Source of the DNA: Nitrospinota bacterium
GTDB taxonomy: Bacteria; Nitrospinota; Nitrospinia; Nitrospinales; VA-1
Length of the DNA: 38,496 nucleotides
NCBI GenBank assembly: GCA_027619975.1
Contig: JAQCGX010000033.1
Coordinates: 1 to 38,496 of the forward strand
Reading direction: 5' to 3'
Shown: positions 17,426 to 38,343 of the stretch, in pieces
Layout: each line of letters starts with the position of its first letter
Numbering within the stretch: the stretch's first letter is position 1
The notes under the pieces: generated by a model
The model's database searches: none
Told to the model about the DNA's origin: nothing
Seen by the model: only the letters and a program-made list of their open reading frames with translations
Program-made: the position numbers and the translations under genes

Positions 17426-17458
17426 CTAGTTGTTTTAAAAGAGCAAAGCATCAAAAGA

Positions 17459-17488
17459 AACCGCCTCCATCCGGGGGCGGTTTTTTTT
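17459..17488 (+). terminator. Intrinsic terminator after HU gene
   Basis: A 10-bp stem (AACCGCCTCC with GGGGGCGGTT, one T-G pair) around an ATCC loop, followed by T8. It lies about 35 nt after the HU stop. Confidence 0.92.
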
Positions 17489-17501: not shown

Positions 17502-18017
17502 TTAAGGAGTCATGAGTTTATATGTGAGCTGTCTGGCCTTCAGATCATCAGATAACCGGGTCGCATCCTTCTCCGTCGTAAACGCTCCAACCAAGACTCT
17601 GAACTTGGGATTCAAAAATTCTTTTTCGCTGAAGGTAAACAATAATGGAGACAAGCCCAAGGACCTCAGGTTAAGCATCAAACTCTCTGCTTCATTTTCA
17701 TGGTCATACTCTCCCATCAAAAACGCATAAGGTTTTTTTACAGGAATCGCATGCTTGGAAATATCATGCTTTCTAAGTTCCGAGATCAGTTCGTGCGCTA
17801 AATCCAGACTCGCAAAACGGCCCACGTAAACCCGGTAAATTTTTCTATTTCTGGAAATATTTACCGGCGCAGAATAAGCATTGAAGCCCAACTTTCTCAT
17901 CTCATTGACGGCCTGGGTGGCCATGGGATAATCCATATGGCTGGAAGCATGGATGGTAAATGCAACGGCGAGGTTTCGGTCCTTTGAAAAAATTTCTTCG
18001 CTCGGCGTTGCCGACAC
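17502..18017 (-). CDS. SPOR-domain protein (C-terminal part of a split envelope protein)
   Basis: 171 residues from a GTG at 18017. Two SPOR-like repeats are visible: about 15-85 (AVAFTIHASSHMDYPMATQA to YRVYVGRFASLDLAHELISE) and 88-168 (AFLMGEYDHENEAESLMLNL to FRVLVGAFTTEKDATRLSDD). SPOR domains bind denuded septal peptidoglycan in the periplasm, yet this frame has no signal peptide and no ribosome site. It is in the same frame as the FimV-like gene upstream, separated only by two TAG codons (18096-18098 and 18048-18050). It is therefore best read as the detached C-terminus of that protein. Confidence 0.75.
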   Translation of the reverse strand: MSATPSEEIFSKDRNLAVAFTIHASSHMDYPMATQAVNEMRKLGFNAYSAPVNISRNRKIYRVYVGRFASLDLAHELISELRKHDISKHAIPVKKPYAFLMGEYDHENEAESLMLNLRSLGLSPLLFTFSEKEFLNPKFRVLVGAFTTEKDATRLSDDLKARQLTYKLMTP

Positions 18018-18095
18018 ATCGGGGGAAGCTTCTGGTCTTTCCAGGTACTAGTTTACTTTAAATTTTTCCTTAAGAATTTTCCAGGCCCCGTTCTC

Positions 18096-19628
18096 CTAGA
18101 CAATGCCTACATCCTTGCGTCCATAGCTTTCCATTGTCCCGGAGGAAAAACTTTGGCCGAATGAGACCATCGGCTGTCCGCCCATTAACACCAATGAAGC
18201 CTGTTTGATGCCAAGCTTGATATTTTTATGACGAGCGAACATCCTTTTTTTCAGGAATCTTAAATTCGCAATGTCCTCGGAAAATGAGTCAGTGGTTTGA
18301 TCCGCTAACAAGGCCAGATGTTGCTCCAGATCCCCGTTTTCCCAACTTGTTTTCCATTTCTGGAGCATTTCAAAGATCATCTTTTTTTCCTCTTCACTTT
18401 CCAGGGGAAGGGGAATTTCCTGCGTCATCACACTCAAGGCTCCATCTTCCATGGAGGGCAGTTTGTTCTGAATGATCTTCCATTCCTGTTGCTGACTCAG
18501 AAGAATTTGCTCGGCCAGGTTGGAATCAATCTCTTCCAGTCTTTTCTCGAGGTTTTCCAGATTGATCTGACTACCCGCTTTCAGCCCATTCATATTTCCA
18601 TACAAAAAGCTTTCAGGGTTATCCATCCAAATAGCGGCGGCGACACGAGCACCGTTGGTTGAAAAGGTATTTAGTTTACTTGCTATGGAGAGCAGATTTT
18701 CTCCCTGGGCCAGCCCATAGCTCAGCTCAGTCGAGGGGCTCTCCTTTTGGCGGATCAGTTCAGGTGGAGCCGGGGATTCAATATCCGTAGAGACTGGAGA
18801 ATCTAAAGGTCCCTTTGCTACTGTTTTCGTGGCGGCTTTGATATCTTCCTCACTAGGAGGTTGAGACGGGTCCATGGAAGGCATGCGGGGGATGGAAACC
18901 GGGGGTGAAATCCAGGTTGCACCTGGAAAGTAAGAATCCTCACCTCTATTGCCCTTGATATGAGCAGGAGGTTTTGCCATCCATGAGGGTGCATTGACCC
19001 GAGAACTCTTGGAAAACCCGGTCTTCTCAGACACATCAGGAGGACCCGTTTCGGAATCACCCTCAGCACCTTCAAGTTCTTTGTCTATTGCTTGAGAGTT
19101 CGATGCTTCGACTGCGGCTTCTCCTCCATTCAACGAATCCACCTTTTTTATGGAAGGGGGGTCTTCAGAAGATTGCCTTTCTTTGCCAATGACGTTAAGA
19201 GCCAGACTTTGTTTGAAGTCCACAGTGATCAAATATGGCTCTAGCAACACCCCGCCTTTAAAAGTTCCACGAACGACCAAATGGAAAGAAGGAAAAAACA
19301 AAGGCCTTCTTGAAATCACCCGAACTGTTTTCCGCCGACCTTCAGTTCCAGCAGGTTGCTCTATAACCAGATCGTCAATGATCAACGGGCGGTCGATATC
19401 AAGACGGCGGTAATCATTAACATCTCCCAGCTGAACCTGAAGCTCCCCCTCCTCTTCAAGGATCACATCCTGTTCGGCATCAAACCGTTCCCCGAATTTA
19501 CTATGGATATCTATTCCACCGAATGAAAAAGCCAAGGCATCGGGCGCCTTGCCAACCAGGGTCATCACCGCAATCAAAATAACGAAGTTAAAGATTCTTA
19601 GTATCAATTCAGCACCCTTGATCTTCAA
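18096..19628 (-). CDS. FimV-like N-domain / LysM / Cds6-like envelope protein, ending at premature TAG
   Basis: 510 residues. A hydrophobic N-terminus ending near APDALA reads as a signal peptide. Residues about 35-140 resemble the FimV/HubP N-terminal domain (SKFGERFDAEQDVILEEEGE; LFFPSFHLVVRGTFKGGVLL). A Pro/Ser/Glu-rich linker follows. A LysM-like stretch near 305-360 (YGLAQGENLLSIASKLN; GNMNGLKAGSQI) corresponds to FimV's peptidoglycan-binding region. From about residue 420 a SnoaL/Cds6-like domain starts (KWKTSWENGDLEQHLALLAD) and is cut at SYGRKDVGIV by TAG; the expected end, ENGAWKILKEKF, follows in frame after the stop. The start is TTG at 19628 with no strong ribosome site; a second TTG at 19607 is possible. 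Confidence 0.75.
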   Translation of the reverse strand: MKIKGAELILRIFNFVILIAVMTLVGKAPDALAFSFGGIDIHSKFGERFDAEQDVILEEEGELQVQLGDVNDYRRLDIDRPLIIDDLVIEQPAGTEGRRKTVRVISRRPLFFPSFHLVVRGTFKGGVLLEPYLITVDFKQSLALNVIGKERQSSEDPPSIKKVDSLNGGEAAVEASNSQAIDKELEGAEGDSETGPPDVSEKTGFSKSSRVNAPSWMAKPPAHIKGNRGEDSYFPGATWISPPVSIPRMPSMDPSQPPSEEDIKAATKTVAKGPLDSPVSTDIESPAPPELIRQKESPSTELSYGLAQGENLLSIASKLNTFSTNGARVAAAIWMDNPESFLYGNMNGLKAGSQINLENLEKRLEEIDSNLAEQILLSQQQEWKIIQNKLPSMEDGALSVMTQEIPLPLESEEEKKMIFEMLQKWKTSWENGDLEQHLALLADQTTDSFSEDIANLRFLKKRMFARHKNIKLGIKQASLVLMGGQPMVSFGQSFSSGTMESYGRKDVGIV

Positions 19629-19701: not shown

Positions 19702-20103
19702 CTAGTTTTTCTGTTTTCCGTTTTTTTTCATTTGCTTTATTTCCGCATGCTCAAAATCCCGAAAGGCGCCTCGATTTGCTTTCTCGGGGTTCCTTGTCTT
19801 CCTGTGGTAATCATTGGTGACCCAGTTTTTTTCTATGTAATGACAGGCTCGGCATTCATGAGTTTTTTTGAAGTAGGGGCTTTTATAATTGTTTCTGATC
19901 GACTCCATGTGATCGGCGGGATCGAAGGTTTTATGGACGTGACAACTTTGGCAATACTCATTTATAACTTTATTGTTTTCTACAGAAGCAAATTTTCCCT
20001 GAAAAGCATCTTCAATGCGCCGTTCAGCGCATCCTGCTGTAAAAAAAATCAGCGCGGCCAAAATAATCCAGAAAAAAACGACCCGATAATTTTTCACCCC
20101 CAT
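19702..20103 (-). CDS. Diheme c-type cytochrome lipoprotein
   Basis: 133 residues from ATG at 20103. A short basic start and hydrophobic helix lead to the lipobox FTAGC, so it should be lipid-anchored. Two heme-binding CxxCH motifs follow, CQSCH and CRACH, about 30 residues apart, with extra histidines (HVHKTFDPADH, HECRACHY, DYHRK) that could be distal ligands. It probably transfers electrons in the periplasm or at a membrane face; the partner is not in the window. The frame is open to an ATG at 20166, but that would place 21 residues before the signal sequence. Translation ends in TAG at 19702. Confidence 0.82.
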   Translation of the reverse strand: MGVKNYRVVFFWIILAALIFFTAGCAERRIEDAFQGKFASVENNKVINEYCQSCHVHKTFDPADHMESIRNNYKSPYFKKTHECRACHYIEKNWVTNDYHRKTRNPEKANRGAFRDFEHAEIKQMKKNGKQKN

Positions 20104-20335
20104 TGGGCGTGTGCAAGCATCTCGACATTGTGGCGGGAAATATTTTTTTTTAACTTTTAACGGCATTACAAACCAATGGATGATTAAAAAAAAGGAGGAA
20201 CTGGAAAGTTAACGAATTTTGCCAAAATGGAAAATCCACAAAAACATCGAAGGCTTTGGTTAGCGCCTATCTATTGCGCCGGGTAATATCTTATATCGAG
20301 CATTTTTCATCATCAAAAAACGCCTCGCCTTTCTG

Positions 20336-21046
20336 TTATATCGACTGAGCCCGGATCATTTCGTATCGGTGGATCACTTTTCGAGAATAGCCTTCAGGCC
20401 GGTAGCCTTTTCTCAAGTATCGGGCTAATTTGGTAGGGCCGTGATTATACGCTTCCAGAGCCAAATGAAGATCGCCAAACCGTTTCACCAGTTTGTCCAG
20501 ATAATACGCGCCCAATGCGATATTGGCTCCGGGGTCATACAAGGTGGGATTGCCGTTCCATTCTCTACTGGTTTCTCTGGCCATCGCAATCGCTGTTTTA
20601 GGCAGAATCTGCATCAATCCCAAGGCCCCCTGCCGGGACCTAGCCCAATTATTAAAGGAACTTTCAGTGATGATGACGGCCGTTAAAAACAACGGATCAT
20701 AACCATACTTTTTGCTCTCATGAATTATCACCGCAGGAATTGTATCTCTGAACCCTCGCCCCAGCCCCGTTTTGTAATTGGCAAGAACCTTGACAATCTG
20801 ATCCCGCACCTCATCACCTGATAGAAATTCATCAGATGCTGAAGAATTCTGGTTTTGCAGAAAAACCCGTTCTTCCCATTGGCCGGCTGCAATATAATAC
20901 GGGGACAATCCCGGAACAGGGTGGGTGGCATTTTCCATAAAAAATCCTGCACAGAATATGGCGAGGACTCCAGCGAAAATGGCGGTGCAGGTCTTGGAAA
21001 ATTTCATCTTAAAATTTCGAAAATAAGTCATTTTATATAATACCAT
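20336..21046 (-). CDS. Lytic transglycosylase, SLT domain
   Basis: 236 residues. An N-terminal signal/anchor (CTAIFAGVLAIFCAGFFMEN) precedes a Slt70-type catalytic domain from about residue 105: AVIITESSFNNWARSRQGAL carries the catalytic Glu (in TESSF), GLMQILPKTA and NIALGAYYLDKLVKRFGD are family motifs, and LALEAYNHGPTKLARYL closes the fold. It cleaves peptidoglycan between MurNAc and GlcNAc, forming 1,6-anhydroMurNAc. In-frame ATGs at 21031 and 21007 are alternative starts; none has a strong ribosome site. It is divergent from the zinc-ribbon/FliL-like gene. Confidence 0.9.
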   Translation of the reverse strand: MVLYKMTYFRNFKMKFSKTCTAIFAGVLAIFCAGFFMENATHPVPGLSPYYIAAGQWEERVFLQNQNSSASDEFLSGDEVRDQIVKVLANYKTGLGRGFRDTIPAVIIHESKKYGYDPLFLTAVIITESSFNNWARSRQGALGLMQILPKTAIAMARETSREWNGNPTLYDPGANIALGAYYLDKLVKRFGDLHLALEAYNHGPTKLARYLRKGYRPEGYSRKVIHRYEMIRAQSI

Positions 21047-21188
21047 AACATCATAAAACCCCTATCCGTTTTGGCCGAAATTTAAGAACGCCGATTATAG
21101 TTCAGAGCCCCTTGCTTGTCAATCAACTATCAAATTGGAAAACAAGGGATTAGCTTAAATTAGATAAACATATTTAGACAGGAATAGG

Positions 21189-36395: not shown

Positions 36396-36496
36396 CCTAA
36401 AAACTTTATTGGTTTTAATAGGTAAAAATCAATAAAATTGTTAGTATTCTATTTCCGTTGCAGAAAAAGAACCCCTATTTATACAGGAATATATCT

Positions 36497-36967
36497 ATGC
36501 TTGCAGATTGGATATTAAAGCGAATAGAGGTGGAAAAATCCAAAAACAACCTCAAGGGGGCAGATCTCAGCGATGCGAAACTGATGCAGGCAAAGCTCAG
36601 TGACGCTAATCTAAGGGATGCAGACCTCAGTGGGGCCTACTTCATTAAAGCGGATTTGGCAAATGCCGACCTTGGAAACTCCGACCTTTCCCGGGCCGTT
36701 CTCAGCGAGGCCAACTTAAAAGGAGCCAATCTTGGTGGCGCAAACCTCAAAGAGGCTTTCCTCAATGAGGCCGACCTGCAAGGAGCTGATCTGGAAGAAG
36801 CAGAATTAGAGGATACCGACTTGAGGGGAGCGGACCTACGACAGGTAAAAAATCTAACCTGCGAGCAAATTGAGTGGGCAGTTATTGATAAATCCACCCA
36901 GTTTCCTGAATACATTCAATTAGCCTGGACCGATGAAGACACTTTCAATTGCAATGACAACTGCTGA
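36497..36967 (+). CDS. Pentapeptide-repeat protein 1
   Basis: 156 residues from ATG at 36497, which has AGGA upstream; a TTG at 36458 would extend the frame but has no such site. About 20 residues of amphipathic helix precede some 19 pentapeptide repeats (A(D/N)LxX) from about residue 22 to 115, which should form a right-handed square beta-helix. The last 40 residues (CEQIEWAVIDKSTQFPEYI, then QLAWTDE) form a non-repeat cap shared with the next two genes. The cellular role of most such proteins is unknown. Confidence 0.88.
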   Translation: MLADWILKRIEVEKSKNNLKGADLSDAKLMQAKLSDANLRDADLSGAYFIKADLANADLGNSDLSRAVLSEANLKGANLGGANLKEAFLNEADLQGADLEEAELEDTDLRGADLRQVKNLTCEQIEWAVIDKSTQFPEYIQLAWTDEDTFNCNDNC

Positions 36968-37100
36968 AATTTCGAAAAACCTGGCAACTCCCTGCTGGAA
37001 TATTTACCCGTTTAGGGGTATGTTGTAGACTCAACCCCAAGGGACATTATTTAGAAATTAATTTTATCGGATGGATCGATACCATAAGCAATGAGGAATT

Positions 37101-37664
37101 ATGTCTGATCAAGAAGTTACGGATAAAGAACGGGCGCAGACATCCAAAAAAGATCTTCAGGGAGCTGATTTCAGCGGCGGGGATCTTGTCCAGGCCGACC
37201 TGCGTCGAGGAAATCTAGCGAATGCGGACCTCAGTCGGGCCGATCTCACTGAAGCCCGGCTCAATCACGCCAACCTCAGTGGAGCCAATCTCAGCAAGGC
37301 AAAACTGAATTTTGCCAACCTCAGTGAAGCCAACCTCAGTGAAGCCAACCTCAGTGAAGCGGATCTAAAAGAGGCTGACCTAAGCTACGCCAAACTGAAC
37401 CATGCGGATCTGACTTCAACAAAAATGGACGGAACCAACTTGTCCGGTGCCGACCTTAAAGATTCCATCAACCTTTCCTGTCAACAAATTGAATCGGCAA
37501 TCATCGATAAAAAAACCAAGTTCCCCGATTACTTACAAGTCACCTGGACCTATGTGGGACGATACGGTGCCAATTTTCATTGCAAGCTAAGTTCACCGAA
37601 ACAAACGGAAAGTAAAAAGAAAAAGGCTAATTTTCACGACAGTAAATTGTATCAACAAGGGTAA
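37101..37664 (+). CDS. Pentapeptide-repeat protein 2
   Basis: 187 residues. A charged 20-residue N-terminus is followed by about 22 pentapeptides (ADLRRGNLANADLSRADLTE and on) and the same cap as its neighbours (CQQIESAIIDKKTKFPDYLQ, then VTWTY), then a basic Lys/Ser tail. AGGAATT lies close upstream of the ATG. It starts about 130 nt after the previous pentapeptide gene with no terminator between them. Three perfect 15-bp units lie inside. Confidence 0.88.
   Translation: MSDQEVTDKERAQTSKKDLQGADFSGGDLVQADLRRGNLANADLSRADLTEARLNHANLSGANLSKAKLNFANLSEANLSEANLSEADLKEADLSYAKLNHADLTSTKMDGTNLSGADLKDSINLSCQQIESAIIDKKTKFPDYLQVTWTYVGRYGANFHCKLSSPKQTESKKKKANFHDSKLYQQG
37314..37358 (+). repeat. Three perfect 15-bp tandem repeats
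   Basis: GCCAACCTCAGTGAA occurs three times head to tail (37314, 37329, 37344). Each unit encodes five residues, so gain or loss by slippage would add or remove one beta-helix step without shifting the frame. Confidence 0.95.
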
Positions 37665-37743
37665 GAGCGGCAGGATCAATAAACTTCGGGACTTTTTCGA
37701 GTCGTAGGACGAGGAATAATATCCAATAAAATAAAAATAAGGT

Positions 37744-38343
37744 ATGTCCTTGACAAGGGTATTTCGCAAGAGAATTTTTTCTCCAGACGATCTTAAAGAA
37801 GCGGATCTTCATGGCAGGGATCTCACTTCAATGAATCTGATCCGGGCGGATTTGAGGGGAAAGAATCTCTGCAAAACAAAGTTAAAAGGCGTTAATCTCA
37901 TTGATGCTGATTTAAGCGGCGCCAACTTGAGCGAGGCAAATCTCATTCGCGCGGTCCTCATAGGCGCCAACCTCACCAACGCCAGCCTCATTCAGTCCAA
38001 CCTGATCGCCGCCAACCTGCTGAGAGCCAACCTCAGCGATGCAAAATTGTTTAAAGCCGACCTCCTTAGGGCCAACCTAATGAGCGCCAATTTGAAAAAT
38101 GCCAACCTCAGCGGCGCCGATTTAATGGAAGCCAATTTGGGCGGTGCTGACTTTACAGGCACCATCCTTAGCGGAGCAAATCTCACGGGAGCCAACCTCC
38201 GATTTGCAACCAACCTTTCGCTGCAAGAAGTCGAATCCGCCGTTTTTAACAAGACAACACAATTTCCCGATTCCATTCCAATACTCTGGACCAGCGAATC
38301 CACCTATGAAATCGCAGACAGCCCTTCCCACTCTACAAAATAG
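37744..38343 (+). CDS. Pentapeptide-repeat protein 3
   Basis: 199 residues, the longest of the three. A short basic start (MSLTRVFRKRIFSPDDLKEA) leads into about 28 near-continuous pentapeptides, with many Leu, Asn and Ala at the core positions. The C-terminal cap (LSLQEVESAVFNKTTQFPDS, then IPILWTSE) has lost the Cys present in the other two. AAGG precedes the ATG. It lies 80 nt after gene 2, consistent with one transcript or a tandem duplication. Confidence 0.88.
   Translation: MSLTRVFRKRIFSPDDLKEADLHGRDLTSMNLIRADLRGKNLCKTKLKGVNLIDADLSGANLSEANLIRAVLIGANLTNASLIQSNLIAANLLRANLSDAKLFKADLLRANLMSANLKNANLSGADLMEANLGGADFTGTILSGANLTGANLRFATNLSLQEVESAVFNKTTQFPDSIPILWTSESTYEIADSPSHSTK

Follow-up and report, generated by a model that had tools for sequence, protein, structure and literature searches.

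A FimV-like/SPOR gene interrupted by two in-frame TAG codons in a Nitrospinota bacterium, probably a recently damaged gene

Is a conserved gene that carries two in-frame TAG codons read across them, or has it been broken by them? The question is raised by a 38,496-nucleotide stretch of DNA (the window), a contig (C33) from a 72-contig draft genome of 2.93 Mb whose named relatives belong to Nitrospinaceae or Nitrospinota. Translation of the open reading frames of the window identified a minus-strand frame at 19628–17502, 708 codons long before its closing TAA, with exactly two internal stops, both TAG and spaced by 16 codons (Table 1). Because homology runs in-frame across both stops, such a frame is far beyond chance. 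The initial annotation had assigned a FimV-like part and a SPOR part to this one frame, and apart from the two TAGs the frame is indeed open. The proposed end at 17502 also held, while the proposed start at TTG 19628 gave way to TTG 19607, the likely start given an AAGGG motif seven bases upstream.

Table 1. Positions in the window of the interrupted frame, its stops and predicted domains, and neighboring features.
Feature	Position	Strand	Remarks
FimV-like/Cds6_C/SPOR frame with two TAGs	17502..19607	-	homologues unbroken
First premature stop, TAG	18096..18098	-	W (TGG) in three congeners, R (AGG) in G003
Second premature stop, TAG	18048..18050	-	E (GAA/GAG) in all congeners
Ancestral stop, TAA	17502..17504	-	position matches the stop of relatives
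Signal-peptide-like N-terminus, MILRIFNFVILIAVMTLVGKAPDALA	19530..19607	-	putative; translation judged by eye
FimV_N Ig-like domain (PF25800)	19218..19523	-	34.8 bits, cut-off 27
FimV core/LysM-like region (TIGR03505)	18480..18701	-	30.4 bits, under curated cut-off of 43.45
Cds6_C NTF2-like domain (PF24125)	18063..18377	-	profile match; cut by first TAG
SPOR domain 1 (PF05036)	17754..17921	-	profile match
SPOR domain 2 (PF05036)	17532..17735	-	profile match
Terminator-like hairpin and T-run	17453..17480	-	by eye; loop too long for terminator scan
Small two-CxxCH (haem-binding) protein, cytochrome	19702..20166	-	upstream; no Pfam match
Lytic transglycosylase SLT (PF01464)	20336..21046	-	upstream neighbor
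Sigma-70 consensus promoter, TTGACA-17-TATAAT	21094..21122	-	12/12 matches, motif scan; before SLT gene

With the TAGs entered as X, a domain search of the whole frame returned, from the N- to the C-terminus, FimV_N, the LysM-like core, Cds6_C, and two successive SPOR domains. The match to the TIGR03505 core spans the full length of the model at a score under the curated cut-off, and the homologue in congener G003 likewise scores below it (36.4 bits; cut-off 43.45). The SPOR match exceeds the gathering cut-off; NCBIfam models additionally gave weak FtsN matches and, for the G003 homologue, RlpA and DedD matches, all under their curated cut-offs. The location of the first TAG inside a Cds6-type domain, proposed from the letters of the sequence, was borne out by the profile comparison: stopped at this codon, the Cds6_C match scores 31.3 bits and covers profile positions 2–95 of 111, and with the codon read through the match grows to positions 2–111 of 111 with a score of 45.3 bits.

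The homologues agree with the domain picture. A match is present in 49 of the 64 genomes of the order, and, with the window excluded, the 18 matches of this order-wide search that cover most of the length of the protein are all free of internal stops. All 18 are single proteins, which fully supports the claim of one ancestral FimV/LysM/NTF2/SPOR protein; no homologue ends at the first TAG, and no split version of the gene is found among the near relatives. Open frames in the nearest relatives encode 717–756 amino acids, and in five near relatives both halves of the window frame align to one unbroken protein at 51–61% identity, the C-terminal part aligning to its G003 counterpart without gaps. 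At both TAG sites, the four congeners and one further relative (G008) have sense codons; because in the congeners W or R stands at the first site and E at the second, the stops are, as judged from these alignments, private nonsense changes in this genome. The combination of FimV_N, LysM-like core, Cds6_C, and two SPOR domains in the intact relatives is itself an unusual architecture that is widespread in the order.

The terminator-like hairpin sits after the ancestral TAA and not after the TAGs, and the order of lytic transglycosylase, cytochrome, and FimV-like genes is also found in G003. The consensus promoter upstream of the lytic transglycosylase probably drives all three as an operon. Since Cds6_C is completed by read-through, a hairpin follows the TAA, and a promoter and a conserved gene order lie upstream, the whole frame was originally one gene, probably at the operon end. 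At the far end of the window (36458–38343, plus strand), three adjacent and mutually similar genes (36458–36967, 37101–37664, and 37744–38343) form an apparent tandem family, which is present in G003 too.

The reading that we favor, with a probability of about 0.75, is that this gene, which is single-copy in the genome, was recently inactivated or truncated with loss of its SPOR half: a premature in-frame stop removes a conserved domain, and the orthologues in close relatives are intact. The ancestral gene would have encoded an exported envelope protein possessing a signal peptide, a FimV Ig-like domain, a LysM-like region, Cds6_C, and two SPOR domains, and would have been transcribed last in its operon, after the lytic transglycosylase and the small cytochrome. 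Two nonsense substitutions in the present lineage would halt translation within the last part of Cds6_C, leaving at most a truncated, periplasmic FimV/LysM fragment of 500 residues. At GTG 18017, the first possible start for the SPOR half, neither a signal peptide nor a ribosome site was seen by eye, as the initial annotation had described, so that the septal peptidoglycan-binding part would be lost. SPOR domains bind denuded septal peptidoglycan. The LysM region of Pseudomonas putida FimV binds peptidoglycan (PMC12918733). On these two grounds, the truncation would be expected to entail a loss of septal targeting; several further SPOR proteins are present in this genome.

Against a loss of function stands the state of the downstream half, which still resembles a working gene: the C-terminal part is free of indels and the sign of relaxation is weak. 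On the window branch, compared with G003, the ratio of changes at codon positions 1 and 2 to those at position 3 is 1.7-fold after the first TAG and 1.0-fold before it, with a bootstrap P(≤1) of 0.07 for the former, which is not significant. These values hint at a recent relaxation of constraint in the SPOR half only, for the decay of which there may have been too little time.

The two TAGs are part of a wider load of gene damage that involves all three stop types, because other genes of this genome (G000) show clear lesions as well. We compared 0.90 Mb of G000 with 1.6 Mb of G003 (436 genes one way, 424 the other) and also with 0.23 Mb of G002; genes were called by codon score to remove antisense and shadow frames, the remainder of which were removed by eye. 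About 12 of the ~440 genes tested in G000 are broken, by 11 nonsense changes and at least four frameshifts distributed over contigs C1, C2, C3, C4, C5, and C10; annotation of this draft genome must therefore allow for ~3% broken conserved genes. Nonsense changes interrupt a Maf/MptE-like flagellin-modification gene (TGA, TAA, and TAA), an MlaC-like gene (TAA), a hybrid histidine kinase (TAA), a FecR protein (TAG), one of four flagellins (TAA), and, found by comparison with more distant homologues, a GspE/PilB ATPase (TAA) and a ClpB-type ATPase (TAG). Frameshifts affect an ornithine aminotransferase, two glycosyltransferases, and a family-4 uracil-DNA glycosylase. Two of the broken genes, for example, have intact counterparts in G003, and the same test detected no clear lesion in 424 genes of G003, where the single event lies beside an alignment gap and is not a clear lesion. 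Two G000 frameshift calls (C3:26298–27889 and C3:53866–54056) were unclear and left uncounted. Five matches of G002 genes in G003 were rejected as lesions, being out-of-frame translations, as were two matches of G000 genes in G002, one of them a start region and the other a short ORF. A search of the literature for pseudogenes in Nitrospinota returned nothing relevant.

An explanation that we consider unlikely, and that nevertheless fits part of these data, is that the stops arose by consensus, binning, or assembly error; they would then be absent from the living organism, or be a minor allele in a metagenome-type draft, and the gene would be whole. The fragmentation of the draft into 72 contigs is compatible with such error, as are the far higher frequency of broken genes than in G003 and the otherwise well-conserved appearance of the broken genes. 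Substitutions at the G000 stops lean to transversions (E to stop, for example), and C-to-T accounts for only a minority of the nonsense changes, a pattern that random error explains no worse than natural mutation does. However, only about 3–4% of random substitutions in the FimV-like gene would be nonsense, and yet both oddities in this locally flawless stretch are of that kind. Stops also cluster within genes, one gene having three and a second having two (P = 4.5e-5 for nine stops scattered by length), and this clustering speaks for real pseudogenes and against scattered errors. The known lesions, furthermore, fall in genes of dispensable or duplicated kinds, the flagellin having three intact paralogues and the GspE/PilB-type ATPase two that are full-length, and conservation tends to be lower in the broken genes (median identity 74.9 versus 81.1, P = 0.07). 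We infer that the TAG changes are real mutations rather than consensus errors.

Functional read-through, in which TAG would be decoded at both sites and the full protein made, we regard as very improbable, even though the frame is open and conserved around both stops, its C-terminal part has no indel, and frequent read-through of in-frame stops has been proposed for conserved prokaryotic genes (PMC7918605). The safeguard used in the same literature for functional in-frame stops is that the stop be kept in orthologues of at least two species (PMC7918605); neither window TAG is so kept, as no relative has either stop. Nor is decoding machinery apparent: in this genome, which is 96.6% complete, pylS was not found, none of the 42 tRNA genes found has a CUA anticodon, and an intact RF1 (prfA) scores 539 bits, so the earlier suggestion to look for an amber-suppressor tRNA or a pyrrolysine system led to neither. 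TAG is the terminator of 51 conserved genes whose ends lie within 6 codons of the end of the G003 orthologue, 28 of which have TAA or TGA in that orthologue, and in a sample of 0.52 Mb it closes 32 of the 254 long ORFs. A wholesale reassignment of TAG, already judged unlikely when the locus was first described, is rejected on account of these gene ends together with the different residues, W or R and E, that the two codons replace; the difference in residues likewise argues against local decoding. Two serial stops would moreover multiply the loss of product, and lesions by TAA, TGA, and frameshift elsewhere in the genome would be beyond rescue by TAG decoding. A codon-usage scan for read-through candidates was too weak a tool, the FimV-like gene itself scoring ~0.1 per codon. 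Between the two options that the initial annotation had left standing, nonsense mutation thus prevails over local read-through; this is most probably an ordinary, recently damaged gene with no new way of decoding TAG, and a false lead for TAG recoding is removed.

Equally hard to credit is a working split, with a periplasmic FimV/LysM protein and a SPOR protein translated separately. The unrelaxed constraint before the first TAG would be in keeping with an N-terminal fragment that may still be useful, but the first stop cuts off the last part of the Cds6_C fold, the near relatives possess no split gene, and the SPOR part, though SPOR acts in the periplasm, lacks a signal peptide and ribosome site by eye. 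Least probable of all is that leaky termination lets the lineage tolerate all three kinds of premature stop in genes that are otherwise conserved, some full-length protein still being made from such genes, this one included.

As a recently inactivated or truncated gene, the interrupted frame resembles bacterial nonsense pseudogenes, with in-frame stops confined to a single genome, orthologues that are whole in relatives, and other broken genes alongside; it differs from them in having two stops, no frameshift, and a weak sign of relaxation. With pyrrolysine and amber-suppressor decoding it shares in-frame TAG codons inside a conserved protein, and it departs from those systems in its unconserved stops, the ordinary use of TAG as a stop, and the missing pylS and CUA tRNA. 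The C-terminal placement of the SPOR domains is that of the septal proteins FtsN, DedD, and RlpA, whereas the window protein joins two such domains to FimV-type and NTF2-like domains. The FimV/HubP polar landmark proteins likewise have an Ig-like domain and a LysM-like core after a signal peptide, the core and the signal peptide being putative here; in Pfam and NCBIfam matches, the ancestral-type protein carries Cds6_C and two SPOR domains and not the transmembrane and cytoplasmic acidic part with C-terminal TPR of that family. The intact FimV_N/NTF2-like/SPOR fusion may therefore be a periplasmic landmark built otherwise than FimV/HubP, and this variant architecture in the relatives is a more interesting object than the TAGs.
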